Of a stretch of 34,367 bases of DNA, positions 1,861 through 29,470 are shown piece by piece (the stretch's first letter is position 1; each line of letters opens with the position of its first letter). The translations under genes were made by a program, and so were the position numbers. The stretch covers positions 1-34,367 of IMG/VR virus record IMGVR_UViG_3300025168_000022. One strand, given 5' to 3'. Source of the DNA: a virus. The notes beneath the pieces are model-generated. The model did no database searches. It saw only the letters and a list, made by a program, of their open reading frames with translations, and was not told the origin of the DNA.

Positions 1861-1877
1861 AGGTGAGTCTATCACCT
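1861..1877 (-). promoter_or_regulatory. Hairpin at the stop codon of the giant protein gene
   Basis: Perfect 6-bp arms AGGTGA and TCACCT with a 5-base loop; the stop codon of the giant gene lies in one arm. There is no T-run after it on the minus strand, so it is not a canonical terminator. It could stabilise the 3' end of the upstream message or slow read-through into the next gene. Confidence 0.35.
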
Positions 1878-4800
1878 ACTCTGCTTTCGCGGACCAGATT
1901 CACGGGCCGCCTTCTCCGTCGTGCGCAACGCGCGGATGGACAGGTCTTCAGGACTACGCAGCGACAGGTCGGTAGACAGCCCAAGGCCGAACATGATGGG
2001 CGACGACAGCCCCTGTCGCTTGATCTGCAAGTACTCGCTGGGGCTGACGCGTATTGCCATGTTGGTGCTGTCGATGATCTGCCGTTGCACACCCGCCTGA
2101 AGCAAGACGTACATCATGACCTCGAAGTTCTGGTGGTCCTCGGGCGAGGCGAACCTGTACTCCTGCGGACCCGCCTCAGGGTTCTCAGGATCGATAGCAG
2201 AAGGGCGACCGCGCAGCCGCTCGTCAGGCGGCACCGCCTCGATGTTGAACTGGTCCTTCATGTAAGGCCAAAGCCAATCTGGACTGGCCTGAATCGCAAA
2301 CTCGACAGCATCAGACGGCACGCGCCGGCCGCGCCCCATCGGCTTGCTGCCCAAGCCACCGTACTTTAGCGCCAACGTCAGGATAGGAATGAGGTTCTCG
2401 TTCTTGGCAGCATCAGCCAGACGCACCAGCGCCTGGTTGTTTTCAGCAAACAGGTTGGCGACGTAGCTGGCCATGCTCATGCCATCGATCACCGCATCAA
2501 TCGCAGGAATGCCGGGGCCGAACGACGCAGCGCCCGCATCGGTGTCGAAAATGAACTCCTTGCTCAACTGCGTCCGAGCCTTCATGTAGTCGGCACCGTA
2601 TGCCCACGCGTTGGTGCGCTGCTGGTTGATCTGCTGCATCCGAACCAGCTTGCGGAACATGCCCGGGTCGCGCGCAAGGGCGTTGAGCGTGGCAATGTAG
2701 TTCGCCGTGCGGAAGCTCAGGAACAACAGGTACTTGTTCGCCGTGTTGCCGATCCACTTCGGAGTTGCGCCGTAGTCGAGCACGACGTTGCGGGCGAGGT
2801 CGGCAGCTTGGCCCTCGGTCAGCCCGCGCATGATGCCTGTGGCAAACACGTTCTCGCGCAGTGCGATGTCTGTCGCGTTCGCGATGTACTGCAGCAGCTG
2901 CGTGCGCCGGGGGTCGAACTGGCGCGCGAACTGGCGCAGTTCAGGAGTCGGAGCCCCATCTGCCATCAGCTTTGCAGCCCGCGTCAGCTCGCGGTTGAAC
3001 GACTCGGTGAACTCGACCTGACCCCGCGACGAGCCCAGGTTGTTGCGATCGATCATCCTGCGCATCTGCCCGTAGGTCAGCTCCTGCCCCGTGTCCGTGG
3101 GCCCCATCGGAGAGGTCAGCGGCCGAGGGCTGACGGCATCCACCAGCGGACGGCCCCGCAACATGGACACCTGGCGCGCAACGTCCCGCATCTGAGACGC
3201 CGGGCCGATGGTCGAGGAGTACGCACGCAGCCCTGTCTGAGCGCCCACTGTGGTCTGAGCAATCGAAGGCCCTGATACGATGTTCGTGCCGATGTACCGG
3301 CTGATGGGGATGGGGATCGCTCCCGCAGCAAGCAGCCCACCAGCTGCCGTGCGCCGACTCAGGCTCAACGCATCCTTGAGCAGCCCGAACGCGTACTCGC
3401 CGAACTTCGTCTTCTCTCCTCTCGTCCCTCGCACGAACTGGTCACGACGGCGCAGGGTCTCAAGGTTTTCCAACAGCTCCCCGGTGCGAGACGACTTCTG
3501 AAGCGCCGCCAATGCCTCCGACATCTCTGGGCCGAGCAGCATCACAGAGTCGTCGTAGGGGTCCAGCGACTGTGCAGCCCGGACGAGGTTGGTCAGAGAG
3601 CCCTTGCCCGTGGACGGCCTGAAGCCGGTGGCGCGCATGTTGGCGTTCATCTCGTCAACGATCGGCGAGATGTAGGTCTTGAACGCGGTCTCAACGATCG
3701 TCTGTCGCATGTTCTGGAGGATGAACGAGTTGCTGTACCCCGCCTTGCGTGCAGCTTGGATGCTCTCATACAGCAGCCGGTCGCCCTCGGTGTCGAACGC
3801 TCGCTCGATGATCCTCCGCTCGAGCAACGGCTGACGACCAGGCACGCGAGGACGTATGCCCTCGGCGCGCTCGATCGGCATCATGACCTCGCGCACAACC
3901 GCAACCTTCTCGTCCATGCCCCGGATGATGGCAGTCAAGCCGCGGTACATCGCCTCTTTCTGCAGCGCCGTCAGGTCCAGGTTCGTGACCTTCTCCATGC
4001 TGCGCAGCATCGCCGTCGTGTCAGGCAGCGCCCGACCCGTGCGCAACATGTTCGACAGCACCTGCTCGGCAAGGTCAAGCCGGTCAGCCGGAAGCAGCCG
4101 CATCGCAATCATCTCGGACAGCGAGTCCAGCTCCTTGACGAACTGTCCTTGGTCGCGCATCGCATACGTCATCTTGCGGTCGACGTAGAACCTGCCGTCC
4201 TCGTTCACCGCCCGGCTCACAAGCTCCTTGAACCGCGGCGACCCCTCCAGTTCAGCCATCGCCTCGAACTTACGCCCCGCGTCCGCCTTGCGACCAACGC
4301 CCAACTTCGTCAATGACCGCACGACATTGCGCCGGGACGACAGGGGAAGCGACGCCTCGCGGAACAACCGCTTCGGGGTCTGGCTGTAGAGCGTGGGCAC
4401 AAGGTCAACGAACACCTGTGGGTGCAGTTCCTTCAGCTCGCGAGCAGCCCGACGAGTTGCCTGCGCAACGTCTGACCCGATCGCCCACGCCGACAGCGTC
4501 GGCAGCAGAGCGTCGCGCGACTTGATGGGCTGCACGTCGAACGAGGCACCCAACCCCTTCAGCTCTTTGACGTCCTCTCGCATGTCAGCCACGACATCGC
4601 GAAGCCCTTTGAGAGTGATGGGGCGCATGTCGCTGACAGCCTCAATCGGCACATCGAGGCGCTGGATACCGGGCTGACGGATGGCGATGTCCACAATGTC
4701 TGTCGACGCGTCGTCGATGTACTTCGCAAACACCTCCTCCCCAAAGAAGTTGCGCAGCACCGAGTCCCACGCTCGCTTGACGACCCCGACGTACTCGCGC

Positions 4801-7800
4801 TGGATGGCAATGTTTGCGATGTCGTCTGGAATGGGGGCGCCGCCCAGACCAGCCTCGCCCAGATCCACCCCGCGCTGGTAGGCGATGGCGTAGTACGCCT
4901 GCTTGGGAGTCATTCGCAACGAGTCCTGAAGCTCCTGCGCCTTGCGCTTCGTGATGTCTGCAACCTCCTTGAACTCTCGCTGGAGGCGCCGGTTGACGAC
5001 GATGTTGAATGCTTCCTCGGGAGACTTGCCCTGGGCCACCAGGTCGAGGCCGGCGTCTCGAACCTCCTTCAGGAAGTTGTCCCCGATCGATCCGAACTCC
5101 CCCTTCAGCTTCTCCATCATTTCGCGAACACCGGGGGCCGCATCGTCTGCCACCCCCAACGTGTCGGTCAACTCGGCGCCCAAAGCCTTGGCAACCCTGC
5201 GCACCGTTGATGCAAGCTGTCGACCACCGCCCTCACTCAGCACGACGCCCAGGTCGCGGAGCAGCGGCGAACCCTCGCCGGGCGAGTACAGCGGAGCCCG
5301 CATCACCTCAGCCTCGCGCGCACCCTCGAACCCGCGGGTGACACCGGGCTGCTTTGCAATCTCGAACTGCCGCGCCTTGCTTGCAGGGAAGCCCACCGCC
5401 TCGACAGCCACCGGCCCAAGCACCTCCTCGTAGGCGCGCGTCTTCAGCATGTCCTCGACCAGCATTCGTTGATCGGCAATGAGCGGCTTCTCAGCCCGGA
5501 TGCTGCTTACGATGTCGCTCAACACACGCGACTGCGCGACGTTGTCGGCACCGAACCCCTCAATGACCTCGTCGGCTACAGACCGTGGGTACTGGAACAC
5601 GTCCTGCACCACGCCATCAATCCGTGGGCCGGCCAAAACCTCGGGCTGCATCTTTGCGACGCGCTGCGCAACCTCGTCCACAACCTCCTCGGTGTGCATC
5701 TTGCGAGGCACCATCAACGTGCGAGACACGAACACCATGTCTTCAGGCACGATGTCCTGAATCCTGGCCTCGACAGCCCGGCCACCTGCTGCCCGAGCAG
5801 CAGCAAACACCTCTTCGGGGCGGTTCGCAATGGTCGAGCGGGTGAGCGCCTGGCCCCCCATCCGGCGAGACATGATGCGGCCCATCTCACCGGACAGCCT
5901 GCGCACCTCGTCTGACTGCGCCTGCCTCACCACCTGAGCGCCCAGCTCGTGCAGGGCTCCAACGACAGGCTTCGCCGGACCTTGTTGCACCGTCCTCAAC
6001 TGCCGCTGGTACATGTCGTCCAGCACCTTGGTCAGGTCTCCACCACTCCCATCAGCAATGGCTCGCAACTCTCGACCACCGGGCAGGTACTTGGTGTTGA
6101 TGCCGCCACCATGCAGCTGGGCGAGGACAAGCTGCGCCCGCTCGGCTGCCGTGCCCTCACCCTGGGCCAGCCTGCGAACGATGGACTGGTACGAGTCAGC
6201 GTTCAGCTCTGCTACAGCGCGCTGCAGGGCGTTGACCTCCTGGGGCAGCACGGTGTGCGACAACGGGCGCCCCAACAGCCCCGCCTCCTGAAGCACGAAC
6301 CGACCCCGCGGAGAGTCGCCCACCACGTTCACCAACTGCCGAACCAGCACCGGCTCAGTCGTTGCATCGAGCAGCGCTTGCACCTGGTAGGGCGCCAGCA
6401 CCTCGGCAGCAGTTGCCTCACCCGTCACTCGCCGCACCGACTGAAGGTTGTTGCGAACGTCGATGTCACTCAGACCCTCAACGCGACCCTCAGTCATCTC
6501 CTGCACGGCCCGTATGGCCCTGCTACGCTTCGCCGCCTGCACTGGAGACCCAGCGACATAGGCAGCCTTGTCGACAACGTCAGCGGCCTTCTCGGCCCCC
6601 TTGAGCACGGCTCGCACTGCACCTTCTTCTACGTACAGGAACCGAAGGTCGGCCGGCACATCTGCCAGGTACGCAGCCTCGCCCGCCTTGGCGGCTTTAC
6701 GGACGGTCTGAGCACCCGCTCGCGTCGCTCTCGCGGCACCCTTGCCCAGCATCTTCGCGCCGGATGCTATCGGGGTGCCGGGGTAGAACATCTCGACGCC
6801 CATGCCTACCCAGTACGGGATGGTGTTCGCACTGTCGGCAAACATGATCATGTCCTGGTCAGCTAAGACGCCCATCCCGGGAGACAGTAGCGGCACTCCG
6901 TCACCACGCATTGCTGGCATGGACATGAACTCATCGCCCAGGCTACGACCAGTTGTTGTTGCTTGCGCCCAACGCCCCATGAAAGACCCCATCGCAGGAG
7001 CGACCCTCTTGCCTGTGGGGTCGACCGGCGTAGGCAGCGTCCGCTGCGTCGGCTGGAAAGGCTTGGGTAGAAAAGCCAACGCCCCCATCGCACCCGCTCC
7101 TGTGGGCGCCCTCATCGTCCCGTCTGCCTGTAGCGCCATCGGCCCCTTGGTCAGGCGCTCGATTTCAGTGTCGTCGTAGCCAGCCATCCCGAGGGCGTCG
7201 CGACTCAGCTGGTGCATCCTGTACGCGAAGCTGTCAGGGTCGACCGGCTCGCCCGTCTCTGGGTCTTGCTCCCAAAACAGCGGGGTGAACTCGAACAACG
7301 CCTCGTTGATGAGGCCCGCACCTACGCCAGCGCCGCCGCGCAAACCGGCACCGGATGCCGTCTCCAACACCTGTCCTGACTCAGGGTCGAGCGCACTGAG
7401 GTATCCCTCCATGCGCGGGGTGCCGGTCTCAAGGATTGTTTCCTCAAGTCGAGCGCGCTCCTCCTCGTTGAGAATCAGAAAGCCGTCATCTCGTGCGGCG
7501 TAGAGCAATCGCTGCAGCGTCGCGGCTCGCGCAGCCCGGTGTCGCTCGACCTCTTCAGGGGACAGGACGCGCTGCCGGGCAAACGACTCGATCATCAGGT
7601 CAAAGTCAGTCGGCTTTCGGAACGTGCCGTCGGGCTCCCGGTACATCAGCTCGTAGGTCGGGTATCCGCCAGGAGTCAGGACGGGCCTGCCTTCCTCATC
7701 TTCGACCCGGCGCTGGAATATGCGCGACTCGCGGAAGGGGGGCGCATCGATCAACCCGCCTTCGCCCGAGGTTGTGACCCGACCCTCCGGGTCTACTCGG

Positions 7801-8471
7801 ATGCGACGAAACCGCTCGACGGATGCCTCGGCCTGTTTGGCTGCCTCGTCTGGAGCGATCCCCTTGTTTATCGCAAGGTCGTAGTATTTGCGCTTGTAGT
7901 GGTCATCGAGCGAGTCTTGCGTTCTGCCGTACTGCTCCACGATGTCGGTGCGAGCATCCAGGCCAAGCATCGAGATGGGCTTGCTGGGCGCGCCCCCAAG
8001 CAGCCCCCCGAAGTCTTCGCCTGGCAGCTCCTGTACGAACACCTGCTGTGAGCCTCCCGCGTATCCGGGTTCCTCCAGCGTCTCCTTTGCGGGGAACACA
8101 TGGTCGAGCGGGTCAGGCTCGAGCGGGTCAGGCTCAACCGGGCTGATTGCAGCAGACACTGGTGGCGGCGGGGGAGCCCCGAGCAAGTCGTCGAAGGAGT
8201 CGTCTGGAACTGGCTCAGGCTCAAGCTCGAACGTAGACTCTGGAGGTCTACGGAACGTCTGAGGCATCCTGCCCGTTGGCTTGTCGTCCGCAGGTGCGGA
8301 AGTAGGCGCAGCACCGCGCGCAGCCCCAGAGGACACGGCGGGACTGCGAGCGGCCTGCGCCTGCTCAGCCTCTAACCGGTCAGCCTCCCCGTAGAGGAAA
8401 GACGCGGTAATCGACTTGCCTGCGAGTTCGGCCCGCTGCGCGGCTGCTCGGTACTCGGCTGCGGTCTTCAT
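1872..8471 (-). CDS. Giant internal/ejection virion protein, gp16-like in position (2199 aa)
   Basis: The largest gene in the genome and the third of three consecutive internal virion protein candidates, the position of T7 gp16. Such proteins leave the capsid with the DNA and help form the trans-envelope conduit. The first 45 residues are helical and Ala-rich. Residues about 45-175 are Pro/acid-rich and probably disordered, with a tandem repeat (EPDPL twice). The rest is mostly long helical stretches with many Arg/Glu residues and few cysteines. I see no lytic transglycosylase motif at the N-terminus, which T7 gp16 carries, and no motifs of an N4-type virion RNA polymerase. Its ATG overlaps the preceding stop (ATGA). 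Ejection function is inferred from size, order and composition. Confidence 0.75.
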   Translation of the reverse strand: MKTAAEYRAAAQRAELAGKSITASFLYGEADRLEAEQAQAARSPAVSSGAARGAAPTSAPADDKPTGRMPQTFRRPPESTFELEPEPVPDDSFDDLLGAPPPPPVSAAISPVEPDPLEPDPLDHVFPAKETLEEPGYAGGSQQVFVQELPGEDFGGLLGGAPSKPISMLGLDARTDIVEQYGRTQDSLDDHYKRKYYDLAINKGIAPDEAAKQAEASVERFRRIRVDPEGRVTTSGEGGLIDAPPFRESRIFQRRVEDEEGRPVLTPGGYPTYELMYREPDGTFRKPTDFDLMIESFARQRVLSPEEVERHRAARAATLQRLLYAARDDGFLILNEEERARLEETILETGTPRMEGYLSALDPESGQVLETASGAGLRGGAGVGAGLINEALFEFTPLFWEQDPETGEPVDPDSFAYRMHQLSRDALGMAGYDDTEIERLTKGPMALQADGTMRAPTGAGAMGALAFLPKPFQPTQRTLPTPVDPTGKRVAPAMGSFMGRWAQATTTGRSLGDEFMSMPAMRGDGVPLLSPGMGVLADQDMIMFADSANTIPYWVGMGVEMFYPGTPIASGAKMLGKGAARATRAGAQTVRKAAKAGEAAYLADVPADLRFLYVEEGAVRAVLKGAEKAADVVDKAAYVAGSPVQAAKRSRAIRAVQEMTEGRVEGLSDIDVRNNLQSVRRVTGEATAAEVLAPYQVQALLDATTEPVLVRQLVNVVGDSPRGRFVLQEAGLLGRPLSHTVLPQEVNALQRAVAELNADSYQSIVRRLAQGEGTAAERAQLVLAQLHGGGINTKYLPGGRELRAIADGSGGDLTKVLDDMYQRQLRTVQQGPAKPVVGALHELGAQVVRQAQSDEVRRLSGEMGRIMSRRMGGQALTRSTIANRPEEVFAAARAAGGRAVEARIQDIVPEDMVFVSRTLMVPRKMHTEEVVDEVAQRVAKMQPEVLAGPRIDGVVQDVFQYPRSVADEVIEGFGADNVAQSRVLSDIVSSIRAEKPLIADQRMLVEDMLKTRAYEEVLGPVAVEAVGFPASKARQFEIAKQPGVTRGFEGAREAEVMRAPLYSPGEGSPLLRDLGVVLSEGGGRQLASTVRRVAKALGAELTDTLGVADDAAPGVREMMEKLKGEFGSIGDNFLKEVRDAGLDLVAQGKSPEEAFNIVVNRRLQREFKEVADITKRKAQELQDSLRMTPKQAYYAIAYQRGVDLGEAGLGGAPIPDDIANIAIQREYVGVVKRAWDSVLRNFFGEEVFAKYIDDASTDIVDIAIRQPGIQRLDVPIEAVSDMRPITLKGLRDVVADMREDVKELKGLGASFDVQPIKSRDALLPTLSAWAIGSDVAQATRRAARELKELHPQVFVDLVPTLYSQTPKRLFREASLPLSSRRNVVRSLTKLGVGRKADAGRKFEAMAELEGSPRFKELVSRAVNEDGRFYVDRKMTYAMRDQGQFVKELDSLSEMIAMRLLPADRLDLAEQVLSNMLRTGRALPDTTAMLRSMEKVTNLDLTALQKEAMYRGLTAIIRGMDEKVAVVREVMMPIERAEGIRPRVPGRQPLLERRIIERAFDTEGDRLLYESIQAARKAGYSNSFILQNMRQTIVETAFKTYISPIVDEMNANMRATGFRPSTGKGSLTNLVRAAQSLDPYDDSVMLLGPEMSEALAALQKSSRTGELLENLETLRRRDQFVRGTRGEKTKFGEYAFGLLKDALSLSRRTAAGGLLAAGAIPIPISRYIGTNIVSGPSIAQTTVGAQTGLRAYSSTIGPASQMRDVARQVSMLRGRPLVDAVSPRPLTSPMGPTDTGQELTYGQMRRMIDRNNLGSSRGQVEFTESFNRELTRAAKLMADGAPTPELRQFARQFDPRRTQLLQYIANATDIALRENVFATGIMRGLTEGQAADLARNVVLDYGATPKWIGNTANKYLLFLSFRTANYIATLNALARDPGMFRKLVRMQQINQQRTNAWAYGADYMKARTQLSKEFIFDTDAGAASFGPGIPAIDAVIDGMSMASYVANLFAENNQALVRLADAAKNENLIPILTLALKYGGLGSKPMGRGRRVPSDAVEFAIQASPDWLWPYMKDQFNIEAVPPDERLRGRPSAIDPENPEAGPQEYRFASPEDHQNFEVMMYVLLQAGVQRQIIDSTNMAIRVSPSEYLQIKRQGLSSPIMFGLGLSTDLSLRSPEDLSIRALRTTEKAARESGPRKQSR
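8104..8133. repeat. 15-bp tandem repeat, two perfect units
   Basis: The unit TCGAGCGGGTCAGGC occurs twice in a row (8104-8118, 8119-8133), followed by a diverged partial third unit. On the coding strand it produces the repeated EPDPL segment in the disordered N-terminal part of the giant virion protein. Being a multiple of three, it keeps the frame and could change length by slippage. Confidence 0.85.
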
Positions 8472-23611: not shown

Positions 23612-23832
23612 TTCTGTACGAGCTGCAACACGTTCGCAAGGTCATCGAGCTTCTGCTCGTCCACCTTGTCCTCGTCCAGACTGCCCGCTTTGCGTGCGAG
23701 GTCGAGTACCTTCCACGCTGTGGCAGTGATGGCCTGGTTGACCTTCATCGTCCCCCGGAGGGTGCGCTCGATGCAGGCGATGGCGTCGGGGGCGAGCTTG
23801 AGTAGTGCGGTGTCGATCTCTTGGGGTGACAT
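23608..23832 (-). CDS. Small protein in terminase small-subunit position (74 aa)
   Basis: The first gene of the late block, overlapping TerL by GTGA. It is 74 residues, all helical (DTALLKLAPDAIACIERTLRG, then ATAWKVLDLARKAGSL), with a helix-turn-helix-like middle and an acidic C-terminal end. TerS proteins recognise pac or cos DNA and usually lie directly before TerL. The place suits that, but 74 residues is short, as most TerS proteins have 100-200, so it could be only the DNA-binding part or a different regulator. The ATG has a GGAGG site four bases upstream. Confidence 0.6.
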   Translation of the reverse strand: MSPQEIDTALLKLAPDAIACIERTLRGTMKVNQAITATAWKVLDLARKAGSLDEDKVDEQKLDDLANVLQLVQK

Positions 23833-23996
23833 GTGGCCTCCAACTTATTTGTAACACACGCGCACTTGGATTGGGCTCCCAAGGGGTGGTAGCGAGGGAC
23901 CCGGCATCCGGGGGGTCCCCCCTCCTGGGTCGCACCCGCACCCGCGCCTGCACGCACGCGCCCGCGCACCCACCCGCGTAACGCGCGCCCGCGTAG

Positions 23997-24013
23997 GCAC
24001 GTGATTGACGTGC
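23997..24013. promoter_or_regulatory. Inverted repeat GCACGT-5-ACGTGC
   Basis: Perfect 6-bp arms separated by GATTG, directly left of the large double hairpin. The spacing and symmetry suit an operator for a dimeric regulator, for example one of the phage-encoded HTH or ribbon-helix-helix proteins, but no binding data can be read from sequence. Confidence 0.45.
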
Positions 24014-24017
24014 TGGC

Positions 24018-24074
24018 GCACCTTCTCGCTACGGGTGCAGGGTCTACGGGCTACCCTGCACCTTGAGAAGGTGC
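24018..24074. repeat. Double-arm inverted repeat (57-bp potential cruciform)
   Basis: The outer arms GCACCTTCTC (24018-24027) and GAGAAGGTGC (24065-24074) are perfectly complementary over 10 bp. The inner arms GGTGCAGGGT (24034-24043) and ACCCTGCACC (24053-24062) are also perfect over 10 bp, with a 9-base loop. Small asymmetric internal loops of 6 and 2 bases separate the two stems. The inner arm carries the GGGTGCAGGGT element that recurs to the right. It could be an origin hairpin, a cruciform, or an RNA structure; there is no T-run, so a terminator is unlikely. Confidence 0.85.
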
Positions 24075-24127
24075 TGGTCATGGGGCTTCTCCCCTTTCGG
24101 GTGCAGGGTGCAGGGTACATTAGATAT

Positions 24128-24144
24128 TAGTGGAGTAATCACTA
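24128..24144. promoter_or_regulatory. Operator-like palindrome TAGTG-7-CACTA
   Basis: Perfect 5-bp arms with a 7-base spacer in the AT-rich pocket (TACATTAGATATTAG lies just left). Five bases separate it from the second palindrome. The location between two repeat blocks suggests a regulator site close to a promoter. Confidence 0.4.
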
Positions 24145-24148
24145 CACA

Positions 24149-24167
24149 GAATGAATGGCATTCATTC
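24149..24167. promoter_or_regulatory. 19-bp perfect palindrome, operator-like
   Basis: GAATGAATG, a central G, and CATTCATTC are perfectly symmetric with 9-bp arms. Such compact AT-leaning palindromes are typical of operators bound by small dimeric repressors. The phage encodes an HTH protein (30547) and a ribbon-helix-helix candidate (26961) that could bind it. It lies about 235 bp before the first early ATG. Confidence 0.55.
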
Positions 24168-24225
24168 CGAGAGGTGAAGGGGGCGAAAAGTCCAAGGCAC
24201 CCCGCACCCTGCACCCACCTGGTTC

Positions 24226-24246
24226 ACCTACTGACGGGTAGGTTTT
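24226..24246 (+). terminator. Short hairpin with T-run in the early leader (attenuator-like)
   Basis: ACCTAC (24226-24231) pairs with GTAGGT (24238-24243) around a 6-base loop, and the stem runs directly into TTTT (24243-24246). It would lie in the 5' leader of the early transcript if transcription starts at the AT-rich pocket. The stem is short, so only partial termination or attenuation is expected. Confidence 0.35.
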
Positions 24247-24392
24247 GGCGAGAAGCACGACCAGCACGGGCGAGCAGGACACCCACCCCAAACAGTCTCA
24301 GAAAAACCTTCCCACCACCCAGCGGTACATGCTACACCACTGGTGCCAGCCGTACCAACCGACCCAACGGCACCCAGCGACCCAGCCAACCC

Positions 24393-24399
24393 AGGACAC
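24393..24399 (+). promoter_or_regulatory. AGGACAC ribosome-binding site
   Basis: AGGACAC followed by ACA and the ATG at 24403. This is the first of six identical sites that precede the early genes lacking start/stop overlap. It decides the start of the 85-aa gene against an upstream GTG/ATG option. Confidence 0.7.
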
Positions 24400-24402
24400 A
24401 CA

Positions 24403-24660
24403 ATGACCCTCGCCACAACACACAGTCGCCACAGCAACAGCCACCAGTGGGCGGCGCTCGCCCACCCTGACGGGGCATGGTTTCTGAACGGCACACCCTG
24501 CCGACTCGTCGGTATCCTTGGCTGCGGTTCCGGTGTCTGGCATGCCGACGTTTGGCCAGATGAGCGCCCCACCACATGCCAGCTGGATGCAGCTGCACGC
24601 CTTGGCCTTACCGTCCGCATCTGCGACGAGGTGACAGTGGAGCACGCCTTGCGATCCTGA
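24403..24660 (+). CDS. First early gene, unknown function (85 aa)
   Basis: An 85-residue protein beginning MTLATTHSRHSNSHQWAAL, with Cys/Gly-rich middle (GTPCRLVGILGCGSGVWHADVW) and a helical C-terminal part. I do not recognise a family, and there is no membrane segment. As the first gene after the control region it is likely made earliest, so an anti-host or anti-defence role is conceivable but only inferred from position. The ATG at 24403 is chosen for its AGGACAC site. Its TGA stop forms part of stem I of the first hammerhead ribozyme. Confidence 0.65.
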   Translation: MTLATTHSRHSNSHQWAALAHPDGAWFLNGTPCRLVGILGCGSGVWHADVWPDERPTTCQLDAAARLGLTVRICDEVTVEHALRS

Positions 24661-24711
24661 GTAGCTGACGAGACCGGAAGGTCGAAACGTCCCACACGGG
24701 ACGTCCTACTC
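24659..24711 (+). ncRNA. Hammerhead ribozyme, type I, copy 1
   Basis: Stem I is GAGTAG (24659-24664) with CTACTC (24706-24711). The core CTGACGA is at 24665-24671. Stem II is GACC with GGTC (24672-24675, 24680-24683) closed by a GGAA tetraloop. Then comes GAA (24684-24686). Stem III is ACGTCCC with GGGACGT (24687-24693, 24698-24704), with loop ACAC. C24705 is the cleavage nucleotide, so cleavage is expected between 24705 and 24706. Every invariant core base of the hammerhead is present (CUGANGA, GAA, the A-U pair at the base of stem III, and H=C). Stem I is open, so it is type I. The 5' strand starts inside the TGA of the upstream gene; the downstream product begins with a 23-base leader carrying AGGACAC. 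Confidence 0.93.
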
Positions 24712-24718
24712 TCACAAG

Positions 24719-24725
24719 AGGACAC
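24719..24725 (+). promoter_or_regulatory. AGGACAC ribosome-binding site after ribozyme 1
   Basis: Located 13 bases downstream of the predicted cleavage point and four bases before the ATG at 24729. The AGAGG part can pair with CCUUG before stem I in the uncleaved RNA, so cleavage might expose it. Confidence 0.65.
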
Positions 24726-24728
24726 ACA

Positions 24729-25094
24729 ATGCCTACCAAGAACCAGCAATTTGCCTCCCTTGCATCACTGCACCGCAACCCAGACACGGCCGACGGAGCC
24801 CGCATCTACCGCGCCCTTCGTCGCATCGAGTGCCGCATGTCACGGGCTGCAGAAGATGCCTGCACTCCGCGCGGTGCATCCCGTTACGCCGAGCTGGAAC
24901 GCGTTGCCGAGAACCAGGTGATGAATTTGTTCGGTCGAGTGCTACCCGTTGACGGATTCTTCTGCAATGGAGACCCCCGCGGGTACGCTTTGAAGCTGTG
25001 CAACGATGCAGTCACCATCCCTGAGGGCATGGCTACGGATTGGGGTGGCTACGGCATCCTTGCGCCCGAACCTTCTACGCTCCGGGGTGCGTGA
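24729..25094 (+). CDS. Early protein of unknown function (121 aa)
   Basis: A 121-residue helical, mildly basic protein starting MPTKNQQFASLASLHRNPDTADG. Cys residues occur at C35, C44, C79 and C90; they are not in a clear zinc-finger spacing. The middle (AELERVAENQVMNLFGRVLPVDGFF) looks like a helix pair. I do not recognise it. It is the first gene after ribozyme 1 and would begin the cleaved message. Its TGA overlaps the next ATG by one base (TGATG), linking it to the 110-aa and 94-aa genes in a three-gene cassette bounded by the two ribozymes. Confidence 0.7.
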   Translation: MPTKNQQFASLASLHRNPDTADGARIYRALRRIECRMSRAAEDACTPRGASRYAELERVAENQVMNLFGRVLPVDGFFCNGDPRGYALKLCNDAVTIPEGMATDWGGYGILAPEPSTLRGA

Positions 25095-25426
25095 TGGAAG
25101 CCGTCGAGATCAAAGGCGCCCCCTGCGTTTCCATCTCCATCCGTCTGCGGTACGATCGCAACGGCAACAAGTTCTACCGGGTACAGCTCGCGGCGCATGG
25201 AGGTGGCAAGCGTTTCGGCTGTGCTGCCTTCAACCCCATGAAGGTTAACGCCTCTAGCACAACACCTAACGAGGCTCTTGAAGCCTACGTGTCTCGTATC
25301 GTGGAGGCTGTTGGCGCGTCCACTTGGTGGTCTGGCCCTTGGGTCCTGGCGTACTCAGGCCAGCAAAAGAGCGGCAGCCACCGCCTGCCTTGCTGGGTGG
25401 CTATCTCTATGGGGGGTGTGCAATGA
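25094..25426 (+). CDS. Early protein of unknown function (110 aa)
   Basis: A 110-residue protein beginning MEAVEIKGAPCVSISIRLRYDRNG. The first half is beta-rich (VSISIRLRYD, KFYRVQLAAHGG) and the second has a helix (TPNEALEAYVSRIVEAVGAS). It has no membrane segment and no recognised motif. The start at 25094 is chosen because it shares a base with the preceding stop (TGATG) and avoids an upstream extension in the same frame. It is the second gene of the ribozyme-bounded cassette. The ATGA overlap with the next gene suggests coupled translation. Confidence 0.7.
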   Translation: MEAVEIKGAPCVSISIRLRYDRNGNKFYRVQLAAHGGGKRFGCAAFNPMKVNASSTTPNEALEAYVSRIVEAVGASTWWSGPWVLAYSGQQKSGSHRLPCWVAISMGGVQ

Positions 25427-25707
25427 CCGCGCTTGCCTTCAATCTCCGGCACACCGATACCCACGTTCAGTATGCATTGTGTGACTGTTGCAGCGCTGGC
25501 GTCGCCAATGACGACTGGACCCACTTGGACGCACAGCCCGAGATGGCCGACGAGAACCACGCGCGCATCGGTGGAACCCTTGAGCTTCTCGGGTGGCTGA
25601 CACCACTCAGCCCGTACGACCCGGGAGGGTACTGGACGTGCGAGATTTGCTGGGAGACCTGCATAGGCTCGGGGCAGGTCTGGGAGGGTGAACGCAGGCG
25701 CGGGTAG
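25423..25707 (+). CDS. Early Cys-rich protein, possible zinc binder (94 aa)
   Basis: A 94-residue protein with two cysteine knuckles, CDCC near residues 19-22 and CEIC-x3-C near residues 74-81, that could bind one zinc ion. Between them lies a stretch with LGWLTPLSPYDPGGYWTCE. I do not recognise the family; small zinc proteins in early regions often bind host proteins or nucleic acids, but that is inference. The start is an ATGA overlap with the previous gene. Its TAG stop lies within stem I of the second hammerhead ribozyme, exactly as the stop of the 85-aa gene lies in ribozyme 1. Confidence 0.7.
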   Translation: MTALAFNLRHTDTHVQYALCDCCSAGVANDDWTHLDAQPEMADENHARIGGTLELLGWLTPLSPYDPGGYWTCEICWETCIGSGQVWEGERRRG

Positions 25708-25755
25708 CTGACGAGGTCGGAAGACCGAAACGTCCCATCCAGGGACGTCCTACCC
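25702..25755 (+). ncRNA. Hammerhead ribozyme, type I, copy 2
   Basis: Stem I is GGGTAG (25702-25707) with CTACCC (25750-25755). The core CTGACGA is at 25708-25714. Stem II is GGTC with GACC (25715-25718, 25723-25726), with a GGAA loop. GAA is at 25727-25729. Stem III is ACGTCCC with GGGACGT (25730-25736, 25742-25748), with loop ATCCA. C25749 is the cleavage nucleotide, so cleavage is expected between 25749 and 25750. Compared with copy 1, stem II shows A-U changed to G-C and C-G changed to U-A, and stem I shows A-U changed to G-C. All these changes keep pairing, while the core and stem III are identical. This covariation is strong evidence for a selected RNA structure. The TAG of the upstream gene forms the 3' half of the first stem I strand. 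Confidence 0.93.
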
Positions 25756-25762
25756 TAACCAA

Positions 25763-25769
25763 AGGACAC
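25763..25769 (+). promoter_or_regulatory. AGGACAC ribosome-binding site after ribozyme 2
   Basis: Located 13 bases after the predicted cleavage point, as in ribozyme 1, and two bases before the ATG at 25772. The conserved distance between cleavage point and ribosome site in the two copies suggests that ribozyme and leader form one unit. Confidence 0.65.
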
Positions 25770-25771
25770 AC

Positions 25772-26020
25772 ATGAACACCCCTTGGAATACCCCGGCAGA
25801 ACTGCGCTCGGCGCTTCTTCTCGACTTACTCGACCGGTGGGAGATTCACTGCGACGAAACCCCGGTATCCGGTGGTCGCTTTCGCTGGGATGAGAACGCC
25901 CGCGAAGCACTGCACGCCGCCGGTCCAGAAGCTCCGGCCGTCGTGTCGGTAGAACGTCTTCTCGCCATGGCGTGCGAGTACCTGACTCGCTTCCCCTCCG
26001 ACCGTGGGAACGCAGCATGA
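25772..26020 (+). CDS. Early protein of unknown function (82 aa)
   Basis: An 82-residue, mildly acidic, mostly helical protein starting MNTPWNTPAELRSALLLDLLDRWE. The middle has a short beta turn (ETPVSGGRFRWDENARE) and the end a helix (SVERLLAMACEYLTRF). No motif is recognised. It is the first gene after ribozyme 2. Its stop overlaps the ATG of a 30-residue membrane protein (ATGA). Confidence 0.7.
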   Translation: MNTPWNTPAELRSALLLDLLDRWEIHCDETPVSGGRFRWDENAREALHAAGPEAPAVVSVERLLAMACEYLTRFPSDRGNAA

Positions 26021-26109
26021 ACCGCCACGAACGAGACTTCATCGAGAGCGCGTGCGGGGCTATCGTGCTCGGCGCTTTCATCTTCTTCCTGATGTCGCTG
26101 CCTTGCTGA
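26017..26109 (+). CDS. Tiny single-membrane-segment protein (30 aa)
   Basis: Reading from the ATG that overlaps the previous stop (ATGA) gives 30 codons: a polar, charged start (MNRHERDFIES) followed by a continuous hydrophobic segment (AIVLGAFIFFLMSLP) and a terminal Cys. Length and composition fit a single-pass inner-membrane microprotein. It is too short for usual gene finders. Tight start/stop coupling supports it being real. Function unknown; early small membrane proteins of phages may alter host membrane processes or exclude other phages. Confidence 0.55.
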   Translation: MNRHERDFIESACGAIVLGAFIFFLMSLPC

Positions 26110-26378
26110 ACAGCCACGCCCGTGCGGCCCGTCGTCTGAACCAGCTGGTCGGGCGGCGGGCTTCTGCCGGCTACCTCTTCGTCGGTCCAGTCGTGGCTGG
26201 CTGGCTTCCTGTTCGCCTCTCGGGCCGCACGGCTACCGGCGTGCGCTGGCTTGCCATGTCCGGTCGCGCTCGCTTTCGCTGGACTCCTCCGCGCGCATGG
26301 TCGACCGCGTGTGAGAACCTGACACCGTCCGAGCTTGACCAGCTCACCCAAGAGTTCTGGAGGTCGTCGTGCCAGTAG
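26103..26378 (+). CDS. Basic early protein, start uncertain (about 91 aa)
   Basis: The frame is open from a GTG at 26004 but overlaps the previous two genes there; the most economical start is the TTG at 26103, overlapping the end of the 30-aa gene. The product is Arg/Leu/Ala-rich (NSHARAARRLNQLVGRRASAG), with one hydrophobic stretch (YLFVGPVVAGWLPV) and a helical end (TPSELDQLTQEFW). No family is recognised. A clear GGAGG for the following gene lies inside its last codons. The start choice is weak because no good ribosome site precedes the TTG. Confidence 0.45.
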   Translation: MLNSHARAARRLNQLVGRRASAGYLFVGPVVAGWLPVRLSGRTATGVRWLAMSGRARFRWTPPRAWSTACENLTPSELDQLTQEFWRSSCQ

Positions 26379-26974
26379 CTTTGTACATCGACAGCACGCG
26401 CGGACCCTACCCGGTGCATGTGGGCCAGGCCCTTACGTCTGCAATGGACGCCGAGCACGACGCGCGCACGTATGACGGCCCGCTCGCGGTTGTCGCTCAC
26501 CCTCCTTGCAAGGACTGGGGCAGCTTCGCACACTGGTCGCTACCCGATGCCGACCGCAAGTCCTGCGGTCCTCGCGCGGTCGCTCAAGTGCGGGCGTTCG
26601 GAGGTGTGCTCGAACATCCTGCCCGCTCGCGGTTGTGGATTGAATGCGGACTACCCCGCCCGGGCGAACTGCCCGACAGCCACGGGGGCTGGACACTGGA
26701 GGTCAACCAGTGCGACTGGGGACACCCGGCCCGCAAGAAGACGTGGCTGTACATCGCGGGTGTGGCCCCGCACGAACTGCCCCCCATCCCTCCAGCCCGA
26801 GAGCCTACACACGTCATCGCACCATCGAAGACACCACAGGCGCGGGCTGCTGCCCGTGGCCGACACATCCCAAAGAGCCAACGACACCTGACACCACCAG
26901 CATTCGCCTCGTGGTTGATTGAACTTGCAACGCGCGTCGAGCGCAACCGGAGCACACACCATGTCCACATCTGA
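26369..26974 (+). CDS. Methyltransferase-like protein (201 aa, GTG start)
   Basis: A 201-residue protein with the segment AHPPCKDWGSFAHW near residue 43 and EHPARSRLW near residue 82. These resemble motif IV (PPC, the catalytic cysteine loop) and a following motif of cytosine-C5-type methyltransferases. A third stretch, CDWGHPARKKTWLYI, also recurs in phage proteins of this kind. A canonical SAM-binding motif I (FxGxG) is not evident, so it may be a degenerate or distinct base-modifying enzyme. The GTG start has a GGAGG five bases upstream. Its end overlaps the next gene by 14 bases. DNA modification against host restriction is a plausible but unproved role. Confidence 0.55.
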   Translation: MPVALYIDSTRGPYPVHVGQALTSAMDAEHDARTYDGPLAVVAHPPCKDWGSFAHWSLPDADRKSCGPRAVAQVRAFGGVLEHPARSRLWIECGLPRPGELPDSHGGWTLEVNQCDWGHPARKKTWLYIAGVAPHELPPIPPAREPTHVIAPSKTPQARAAARGRHIPKSQRHLTPPAFASWLIELATRVERNRSTHHVHI

Positions 26975-27197
26975 CGTCCGTCCTCGCATCCCTGCTTCCC
27001 TCGCTCAGCTGCTACGCACCGCTGCAGCCCTCCACCAGTGCCCCACGATCGGCGCGTACCTCGATACTGTTGTGCGTCCTATGGTACGAGCTGACATCGC
27101 CCGGCTACTCTCGACCGACCCGACCCTGGACCTGGCCGCCCCGCCTGCGCCCGAGGTTGTGGTTCCGACCGCGGCTGTGGAATGGAGCGCGAAGTGA
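26961..27197 (+). CDS. Ribbon-helix-helix-like small protein (78 aa)
   Basis: A 78-residue protein with a core reading RPRIPASLAQLLRTAAALHQ, then TIGAYLDTVVRPMVRADIA. One short strand followed by two helices, the second starting at a position like those of plasmid and phage ribbon-helix-helix regulators, is the expected pattern. The C-terminal part is Pro/Val-rich and probably disordered. It precedes the primase-helicase gene, whose start overlaps its stop. It could regulate the early operon, possibly at the palindromes in the divergent region. The family assignment is by pattern only. Confidence 0.5.
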   Translation: MSTSDVRPRIPASLAQLLRTAAALHQCPTIGAYLDTVVRPMVRADIARLLSTDPTLDLAAPPAPEVVVPTAAVEWSAK

Positions 27198-29470
27198 ATC
27201 AAGACAGCCGAGTTGCGCGGGTGTGGCCGACCGCCCCGCCCGACCTGACCTACGTGCAGCAGACCCTGACGGGTGGCACCTACATCTCGACCGGGCTGTT
27301 CCGCCCCAACCAGGTGGACGCTCGCGGTCGTGGCCGCACGATGGAGAATGTGCGCAGGGTCACGTCCCTGTTCTTCGACATCGATCTGCTCGGGCTGTAC
27401 GATGCCGCGCGTGTGGCTCGTGGCACCGTGCTCGAGACCAAGGTGGCTGACCGCAAGGCCAAGCTGTACGCCGAGAAGCCCGCGGTTGTGGCTGCGTTCC
27501 GCAGGCTGATGCGCAACGAGTTCCTGGGCATCATCGAGGACGTGGTGGGCCAGCCCCCAACCCTGGTCATCGACTCGGGCTGGGGCTACCACGCTCACTA
27601 CGCCATCGCCCACGAGATGCAGGCCGAGAAGGTCGCCCTGCGTGGCATCGCTGCCGCCATCATCGACGAGGCCAACCGTCGGGCTGCTGACCGTGCTCGA
27701 ACCATGACGCCGCCCCTGCTGTACGACTGCGCCTTCGACCCGACCCACGATGTCGGCGCCCGGCTCGCCCGTATGCCCGGGACCCTGAACACCAAGTGCC
27801 CCGAGCAGCACCGCAACGTCGAGGTTGTGGCGTCCAGCCCGACAGCCCTCGACCAGGAGGCGCTGCTGTACCTCCAGCGGGAGTACGTGCGGCAAGCACA
27901 GCTCCCCAACAACGAGGCACCCACGGGTGTCGACGTACCCTCGCCCGCCCGACCCAAGCAGTCGCGGTCCATCGACGCGGACTTCCGCTCGATGTCCCTG
28001 CCCGACGGTCGAGGCTGGCAGCAGATTGCATTGAACTTGGCCCCCGGCGACCGCCTGAAGGTTGTGTGTCCGTTTGGCGGATCGACCGTGGGGTCAGGTT
28101 TCTTTGCCTGCGAACCTGATGGGAGGGTGCGCTACTACAGCGGCCCGACCGACACGACGTACTGGAACACGTACACGGCCCCGGCTCGGCTGGGTCGGGC
28201 TGACCTCGTGCGAGGCCCCGACAAGAAGGGTGTGCCCGGCCCCATCCTGAAGACCATCACCAACCTGCTGCGCATGTTCCGAGACGACGAGCAATTCAGC
28301 CTCTGGTACGACAGCTTCAGCGAGCGGGAGATGGACGGTAGCCGGCAGCTGGCAGACACGGATTGGATTCGAGTGCTGTCGCACATGGAGCTGGTCTACC
28401 AGTGGAACTGGCGGCCCGGGAAGGACCAGGTCTTCAGCATCATGGAGTACATCTGCAAGGAGAACACCCGCAACCCCGTGCGCGACTACATGGATGGGCT
28501 GGTGTGGGACGGCGTGCCTCGCATGGACCGCTGGCTGACCGAGGTGTGCCACGTCGAGGACAGTGAGCTGCACCGGACCTACTCGCGGAAGTGGCTCATC
28601 GGTGTGATGGCTCGGCTGTACCTGCCGGGTTCGAAGAACGATTGTAGCCTCCAGTTAGTTGGGGCTCAGGGGTTCGGGAAAAGCACCGTGTTCCGGGCGT
28701 GGGTCGACATCGAGGGGCTGCCCGGCCTGTTTACCGATAGCCGCATCAACCTGAAGGATAAGGACAGCTATATGACGCTGTATAGCTGCCTTATATTCGA
28801 GGACCAAGAGGCAGCCAGCCTTTCCGGCAACCACTACCAAGCGCACAAGGCGTTCATGAGCAGCCAGGAGGACCGGTTCCGCAAGCCCTTCGGGCGCAAG
28901 GTCGAGACCTTCAAGCGGCACACCGTCATCGTCTCTACCTCCAACGAGGTGTCCACCCTGCGCGACCCCTCGGGCGACAGGCGCTGGTGGTGCGTGAGGG
29001 TTCCCGACCGCAAGCACGCCAACCTCGACTGGCTGCGGCAGTGGCGTGACCAACTGTGGGGCGAGGCGGTCGTGGCCTTCAAGTCGGGCGAGGCGTGGTG
29101 GCTCGACCGTGCGCAGGATGCGCAGCGCGCTGTCGCCAACAACGACTTTCGCTACCACGACTGGTACACGCAGTGCGCGCACGTCGTTGCTGCTGCCAAC
29201 GGGGGGGGCCGCAAGAACGGCTTCACCGTCGGACAGTTTGCCAAGGCGATCGATGAGCGCATCGACATGTACCGGGCCGGTCGGAAGCTGTCCGCTGCAC
29301 TCCAGAGCGCAGGCTTCCAGCGGCTTAGGTCCCACGGGGTCACGACCTACTTCACCGAAGGCGAACACCGCCACAACGACAACGGGCTGCTGTCCATCCA
29401 AGGACTCACCCGCACCTCGGCCACTATTCAAGCGGTCGTGGGCCACTGGTCCGACGACATCGCACGCTGA
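27194..29470 (+). CDS. PrimPol-VirE-type primase/helicase (758 aa)
   Basis: A two-part replication protein. The N-terminal archaeo-eukaryotic primase domain shows motif I FFDID (residues about 60-64), motif II SGWGYHAHY (128-136) and motif III DPTHDVGARLARMPGTLNTK (182-201), whose end is the family's RxPGTxN-type signature. A degenerate zinc-like region follows (CPFGGSTVGSGFFAC). The C-terminal VirE-type ATPase has Walker A GAQGFGKST (490-498), Walker B LIFEDQ (533-538), and an arginine-rich segment STLRDPSGDRRWW (587-599). It would prime and unwind DNA, and may also synthesise it. The start is the GTG at 27194, which overlaps the previous stop (GTGA) and has GGAG upstream; an ATG at 27182 would add four residues. 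It lies directly before ERF. Confidence 0.92.
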   Translation: MNQDSRVARVWPTAPPDLTYVQQTLTGGTYISTGLFRPNQVDARGRGRTMENVRRVTSLFFDIDLLGLYDAARVARGTVLETKVADRKAKLYAEKPAVVAAFRRLMRNEFLGIIEDVVGQPPTLVIDSGWGYHAHYAIAHEMQAEKVALRGIAAAIIDEANRRAADRARTMTPPLLYDCAFDPTHDVGARLARMPGTLNTKCPEQHRNVEVVASSPTALDQEALLYLQREYVRQAQLPNNEAPTGVDVPSPARPKQSRSIDADFRSMSLPDGRGWQQIALNLAPGDRLKVVCPFGGSTVGSGFFACEPDGRVRYYSGPTDTTYWNTYTAPARLGRADLVRGPDKKGVPGPILKTITNLLRMFRDDEQFSLWYDSFSEREMDGSRQLADTDWIRVLSHMELVYQWNWRPGKDQVFSIMEYICKENTRNPVRDYMDGLVWDGVPRMDRWLTEVCHVEDSELHRTYSRKWLIGVMARLYLPGSKNDCSLQLVGAQGFGKSTVFRAWVDIEGLPGLFTDSRINLKDKDSYMTLYSCLIFEDQEAASLSGNHYQAHKAFMSSQEDRFRKPFGRKVETFKRHTVIVSTSNEVSTLRDPSGDRRWWCVRVPDRKHANLDWLRQWRDQLWGEAVVAFKSGEAWWLDRAQDAQRAVANNDFRYHDWYTQCAHVVAAANGGGRKNGFTVGQFAKAIDERIDMYRAGRKLSAALQSAGFQRLRSHGVTTYFTEGEHRHNDNGLLSIQGLTRTSATIQAVVGHWSDDIAR

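Follow-up and report, generated by a model that had tools for sequence, protein, structure and literature searches.

Clustered hammerheads of prophages flank single genes or blocks of genes whose identity varies; their proposed role is the division of long phage transcripts into mRNAs of operon or gene length (Perreault et al. 2011, PMC3088659). These clustered hammerheads cleave in vitro, and the sequences from A. tumefaciens cleave also in E. coli (PMC3088659). The same paper lists hammerheads of phages PaP3, Bcep176, and HF1/HF2, and gives a PaP3 hammerhead with core variation as active. In HF1/HF2, the 5' end of an early transcript lies within 3 nt of the hammerhead site (PMC3088659). One paper describes the role of prokaryotic and phage hammerheads as an open question (PMC6155905). 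For the RiboJ insulator in E. coli, an increase of about 2-fold in transcript and of two- to tenfold in protein was reported (PMC6206723). An RNA-processing role is thus not new, as it was proposed for prophages in 2011 (PMC3088659) and cultured PaP3 has a pair comparable to the one described below.

Phage PaP3 (Bruynoghevirus; L097) carries a type I hammerhead at 44106 on the minus strand, directly after the stop codon of orf67, and a type III hammerhead at 45444 on the same strand, abutting the ATG of orf71. The region of the type I hammerhead was found by BLASTN in 90 records, and in five aligned PaP3-type records the adjacent stop codon is UAA or UGA. In one of the five, the cultured Pseudomonas phage HMGUpa2 (L102), the invariant C3 of this region is changed to A, so that the ribozyme is possibly inactive or the change is a sequencing error; unless it is the latter, loss of the ribozyme is tolerated there. 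At position 44012 of PaP3, on the minus strand, a GTG with an AAGGA Shine-Dalgarno (SD) sequence lies 28 nt past the predicted cut. It is in frame with orf66, 12 codons (36 nt) 5' of the annotated start, and the annotation of this gene may be too short. In Bcep176, no hammerhead was obtained with the regular expressions tried; the published one carries core variation.

The DNA analyzed here, called the window, is the IMG/VR record IMGVR_UViG_3300025168_000022 with 34,367 bases. As judged from its letters, 24659-24711 is a genuine and complete type I hammerhead, one of two in an early-gene module, with predicted cleavage. The two are designated copy 1 and copy 2, and the layout of copy 2 is the same as that of copy 1. 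Features of both are as follows.

24403..24660, + strand: upstream 85-aa early gene (ORF map); its UGA stop codon (24658-24660) shares 2 bases with copy 1 stem I and is offset by -7 from C3
24659..24664, + strand: 5' strand of stem I, copy 1 (GAGUAG)
24665..24671, + strand: catalytic core CUGACGA, copy 1
24672..24683, + strand: stem II and GGAA tetraloop, copy 1; GACC (24672-24675) with GGUC (24680-24683)
24684..24686, + strand: core GAA, copy 1
24687..24704, + strand: stem III hairpin, copy 1, of 7 bp with ACAC loop; ACGUCCC (24687-24693) with GGGACGU (24698-24704)
24705, + strand: cleavage-site C17, copy 1 (descriptor position); predicted cut 24705/24706
24706..24711, + strand: 3' strand of stem I, copy 1 (CUACUC)
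24706..24728, + strand: predicted 23-nt 5'-OH leader of the 121-aa gene; 3' strand of stem I, UCAC, then the AGAGGAC SD region
24729..25094, + strand: 121-aa gene 3' of copy 1, ATG at 24729, without family match
25423..25707, + strand: 94-aa gene (PHROG 7225 family) 5' of copy 2; its UAG stop codon (25705-25707) is entirely within stem I
25702..25755, + strand: copy 2, complete type I hammerhead; C17 at 25749, predicted cut 25749/25750
25750..25771, + strand: predicted 22-nt 5'-OH leader of the 82-aa gene, carrying an AAAGGAC SD
25772..26020, + strand: 82-aa gene 3' of copy 2

The topology is that of type I: loops close stems II and III, and stem I is open. The invariant core CUGANGA...GAA and the A15.1-U16.1 pair are present, and the core is identical in five close copies, which are those of the window and of its close relative L003. 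The cleavage triplet is GUC in both window copies, which is a UH site (H17 is not G). An earlier note on this DNA had proposed a type I hammerhead at 24659-24711 with a cut at 24705/24706, which would act as an intergenic processor together with a second copy and leave the 121-aa gene with a short leader. Every part of copy 1 was found at these positions, the cut agrees with C17 at 24705 obtained from the descriptor, the putative second processor is copy 2 on the same early-gene strand, and the leader measures 23 nt up to the ATG at 24729. A pairing of CCUUG (24647-24651) with a downstream CAAG, drawn in the same note, is found in copy 1 and is possible in copy L3b; it is absent from copy 2 and L3c and was rejected as a shared feature, as it is not conserved among the copies. 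A leader hairpin CUCU-CACA-AGAG (-2.8 kcal/mol in copy 1), which could mask the SD, is present in copy 1 and L3b but not in every copy, and is not proposed as a mechanism.

The contig encodes a primase/helicase, an Erf-like annealing protein, a Holliday-junction resolvase, and SSB, and has matches to large terminase, portal, internal virion, and major head proteins. These structural matches fit a tailed phage and are no proof of a podovirus, as the virus had been labeled. The label of a T7-like phage is not supported either, as no T7-type single-subunit RNA polymerase was found among the scanned proteins of the contig, which may be incomplete. Terminase and helicase gave distant matches only, which assign the contig to no phage family or host. 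Genes similar to the PHROG 7225 gene occur in Mycobacterium, Gordonia, and Rhodococcus phages, which is a lead only. No match among named phages was obtained with BLASTN of the region or with tblastn of the 121-aa protein, and no sigma-70-like promoter was found in 23830-27200. On the minus strand, an ORF of 2,199 aa without PHROG match occupies 1872-8471.

The full type I descriptor called for the core and a UH cleavage site and set minimum lengths of 5 bp for stems I and III and of 3 bp for stem II. On both strands of the window it matched exactly twice, at copy 1 and copy 2, and it matched none of 1,500 dinucleotide shuffles. In RNA folding, the minimum-energy structure is the hammerhead for copy 1 and for copy 2. 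Minimum-energy folds of L3a and L3c differ from the hammerhead, as do those of several copies in longer context, and folding may therefore depend on co-transcriptional order or on ribosomes. In a search with Rfam hammerhead models, suggested earlier as a check, no hammerhead family was reported at gathering scores for the window copies and none of the group passes, and in E-value mode copy 2 alone matched Hammerhead_HH9 (RF02275), with 23.2 bits against the gathering score of 52. Copy 1 was not reported by Rfam at E<=1. Failure at the gathering cut-off limits Rfam membership, not hammerhead identity.

L003 has a helicase 95% identical to that of the window in the best segment and carries three hammerheads, one cassette more than the window. 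In the five copies of both contigs, each of the 17 pairs is a standard one if neither letter is missing, and two-sided compensatory changes occur at 6 of the 17 pairs, over all three stems, values that no slid control reaches. A wide pattern, in which the core and a GNAA-type loop were fixed and the pairing of stem II was left free, matched 82 viral stretches. Stem II is fully paired in 74 of 75 distinct viral-locus sites and in 0 of 8 stretches matched in bacterial genomes, for which the pattern was one base stricter. A covariance model computed from the five copies gave 70 matches in 45 loci. In their alignment, which is fitted to the model and leans its way, 98.2% of cells are paired versus 61% in shuffled ones, and the covariation score is 0.83 versus 0.15 in shuffles. 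Two-sided changes number 385 versus 104 shuffled and are found at 14 of the 17 pairs, again in this alignment fitted to the structure. That the copies are chance or inactive hammerhead-like sequences is very improbable. Such a reading could appeal to the Rfam gathering scores not being reached and to the 4 of 18 consensus-matching candidates of Perreault et al. without cleavage in the assay (PMC3088659), but the shuffles without a match, the compensatory changes in the five copies, and a virus-specific set with perfect pairing of stem II (74/75) are all against it.

Anatomy of the type I set is uniform. Stem I is exactly 6 bp long in 60 of the 70 distinct type I bodies, and at its border a U is found on the 5' side in 44 of these 60 and on the 3' side in 53, which makes a U-U mismatch, followed mostly by A-A on the 3' side. 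In loop II, GGAA and GUAA predominate, and the cleavage triplets are GUC (61), GUA (8), and GUU (1). A tertiary contact between stem I and loop II is known from fast hammerheads, and the 6-bp stem I, the U-U border, and the mostly A-A flank together with a GNAA-type loop II resemble it and are compatible with a putative contact of the same kind.

Type III hammerheads form a second viral set, in L027, L054, L059, L060, and other loci. A contig often carries several of them, and most are located about 16-36 nt 5' of an ATG, with a clear SD often missing. Contig L035 has a type III hammerhead before an ATG at 3304 and the start of another hammerhead at 5685, cut by the end of the locus. On the minus strand of L085 there are four cassettes with identical ribozyme body and different genes downstream; one stem I is only 3 bp long.

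On either side of the early module, window and L003 DNA are 86-94% identical. From 24403, the start codon of the first gene, to 26015, blastn aligned only cassettes of about 70-75 nt with 79-87% identity, each beginning at the stop codon and ending just short of the start codon. Among the genes between cassettes there is one homologous pair only (PHROG 7225, 56% aa identity). The 121-aa gene has no homologue among the compared L003 genes, and its leader is conserved in L003. Early genes have been swapped between the window and L003, and the cassette of stop codon, ribozyme, and leader has been retained. A scan with the leader sequence gave no contigs of the same group beyond L003. More distant relatives are L004-L007, with 48-77% identity at the 201-aa protein. 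The cassette was not found in these partial contigs (no R1 match), of which L004 stops short of the syntenic position; the function may accordingly be dispensable or patchy.

Upstream of the first gene, the intergenic region 24098-24216 of the window also matches L003 3131-3249 in inverted orientation (72%), pointing to a putative long imperfect inverted repeat around the early-gene leader. Directly 5' of the helicase, L003 has a 318-aa gene with an SGGKDS motif (5903-6859), the product of which appears PAPS-reductase-like by eye, and the window has a different 201-aa gene there.

The swapping could also be explained at the DNA level, with cassettes serving as short homologous junctions for recombination of early genes and with ribozyme activity being incidental or only keeping an inserted gene expressed. 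Aligned cassettes between non-homologous genes, with similarity over this same stop-to-start stretch, speak for it, and so do the four L085 cassettes with one ribozyme body before different genes. A recombination site, however, has no need of an RNA structure under selection, as is seen in compensatory changes of three stems and in the invariant core, and the PaP3 relatives, with the region conserved in 90 records, lean against it as well. Such a role is regarded as unlikely.

The place of the ribozymes relative to genes is also uniform. An upstream ORF of 50 aa or more has its stop codon within -16 to +3 of C3 in 51 of the 70 distinct type I bodies, and an SD with ATG is found 5-70 nt past the cut in 54 of the 70. 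Both occur together in 44 of the 70, versus 0.7% of random positions and 3.1% of CTGA sites. This phage hammerhead set, large and little-explained, sits between the stop codon of one gene and the start codon of the next. The commonest stop offsets among the 51 are -7 (15 bodies) and +1 (11 bodies); at -7 the U of the stop codon is the unpaired border base of stem I, and at +1 the stop codon is the core UGA. In the window, the offset is -7 for copy 1 and -3 for copy 2. Selection for the overlap of stop codon and ribozyme itself is suggested by these counts, with controls that ignore the ribozyme's own preference for U at -7.

A ribozyme gated by translation could be read from such an overlap: a ribosome on the upstream gene would cover stem I and hold the ribozyme open, cleavage would occur in gaps between ribosomes, and separation of the messages would be tied to the translation load of the upstream gene. 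The offsets of both window copies and the two peaks of the wider set speak for it, as do PaP3-type phages, which exchange UAA and UGA in the nearby stop codon and keep its position beside stem I. Yet compact phage genomes place stop codons near any intergenic element, the ribozyme by itself favors U at -7 (44/60) and so raises the odds of a stop codon there, and the core always supplies a UGA. We regard gating by translation as rather unlikely. A broader switch, in which the stop codon lies within the ribozyme, upstream ribosome traffic times the cut, and cassettes allow early genes to be plugged in with ready-made RNA ends, is judged unlikely, too.

More probably, the two copies, which are genuine type I hammerheads, cut a putative polycistronic early transcript, and their function would be operon processing with stabilization and insulation. 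This reading is based on the structure, covariation, conservation, position, and gene swapping found here, and cleavage and end groups would follow from hammerhead biochemistry. Cleavage by a hammerhead leaves a 2',3'-cyclic phosphate on the upstream product and a 5'-OH on the downstream one. Bacterial exonucleases and 5'-end-dependent decay generally act less well on RNAs with a hairpin 3' end or with a 5'-OH. Each ribozyme would fold as the transcript emerges, and cuts at 24705/24706 and 25749/25750 would separate the gene blocks, so that one long message is probably split into separate ones. The upstream message would retain its full reading frame and stop codon and end in the hairpins of stems II and III with the cyclic phosphate, a terminator-like and presumably protected 3' end. 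The downstream message would begin with 5'-OH and a standard leader of 22-23 nt with ribosome site. The stop-to-start cassette could thus act as a natural insulator, as genes would be exchangeable between ribozymes with the RNA ends unchanged. Stabilization and insulation would be the selected benefit. Operon processing with these benefits is favored over translation-gated cleavage because of the presumed protection of the RNA ends and the expression gain known for RiboJ.

In comparison with known systems, the prophage clusters of type I, II, and III hammerheads (PMC3088659) are like the window in having several hammerheads around genes of changing identity. What differs is that gene exchange between conserved cassettes is seen here in a comparison of close relatives, and that the position of the stop codon relative to stem I was measured, the term "stop codon" being absent from the main text of that paper. 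The earlier note had considered a hammerhead pair in an early operon as unusual; clustered phage and prophage hammerheads published in 2011 (PMC3088659) and the PaP3 pair argue otherwise. PaP3 is like the window a tailed phage with two hammerheads among early-side genes, but in its type I hammerhead both the stem II loop and stem III are long, its second copy is of type III, and there is no sequence relation. The HF1/HF2 halovirus hammerhead (HHphage) lies 13 nt upstream of an early-gene start codon, as in the window at a short distance, but has a variant core, belongs to an archaeal virus, and is described as a single copy (PMC3088659). Hammerhead_HH9 aligns with copy 2 in core and topology over the whole model, with a score far below gathering. 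RiboJ (PMC6206723) is similar in principle, as a self-cleaving leader standardizes and raises downstream expression; it is an engineered part, and the analogy is one of use, not of descent. A precise arrangement is now defined, with a stop codon in or beside stem I, a 6-bp stem I with U-U border, the cut, a short leader, and the start codon. A comparable arrangement is offered by cultured phages, namely PaP3 and about 90 related records, one relative among them having a changed catalytic C3.
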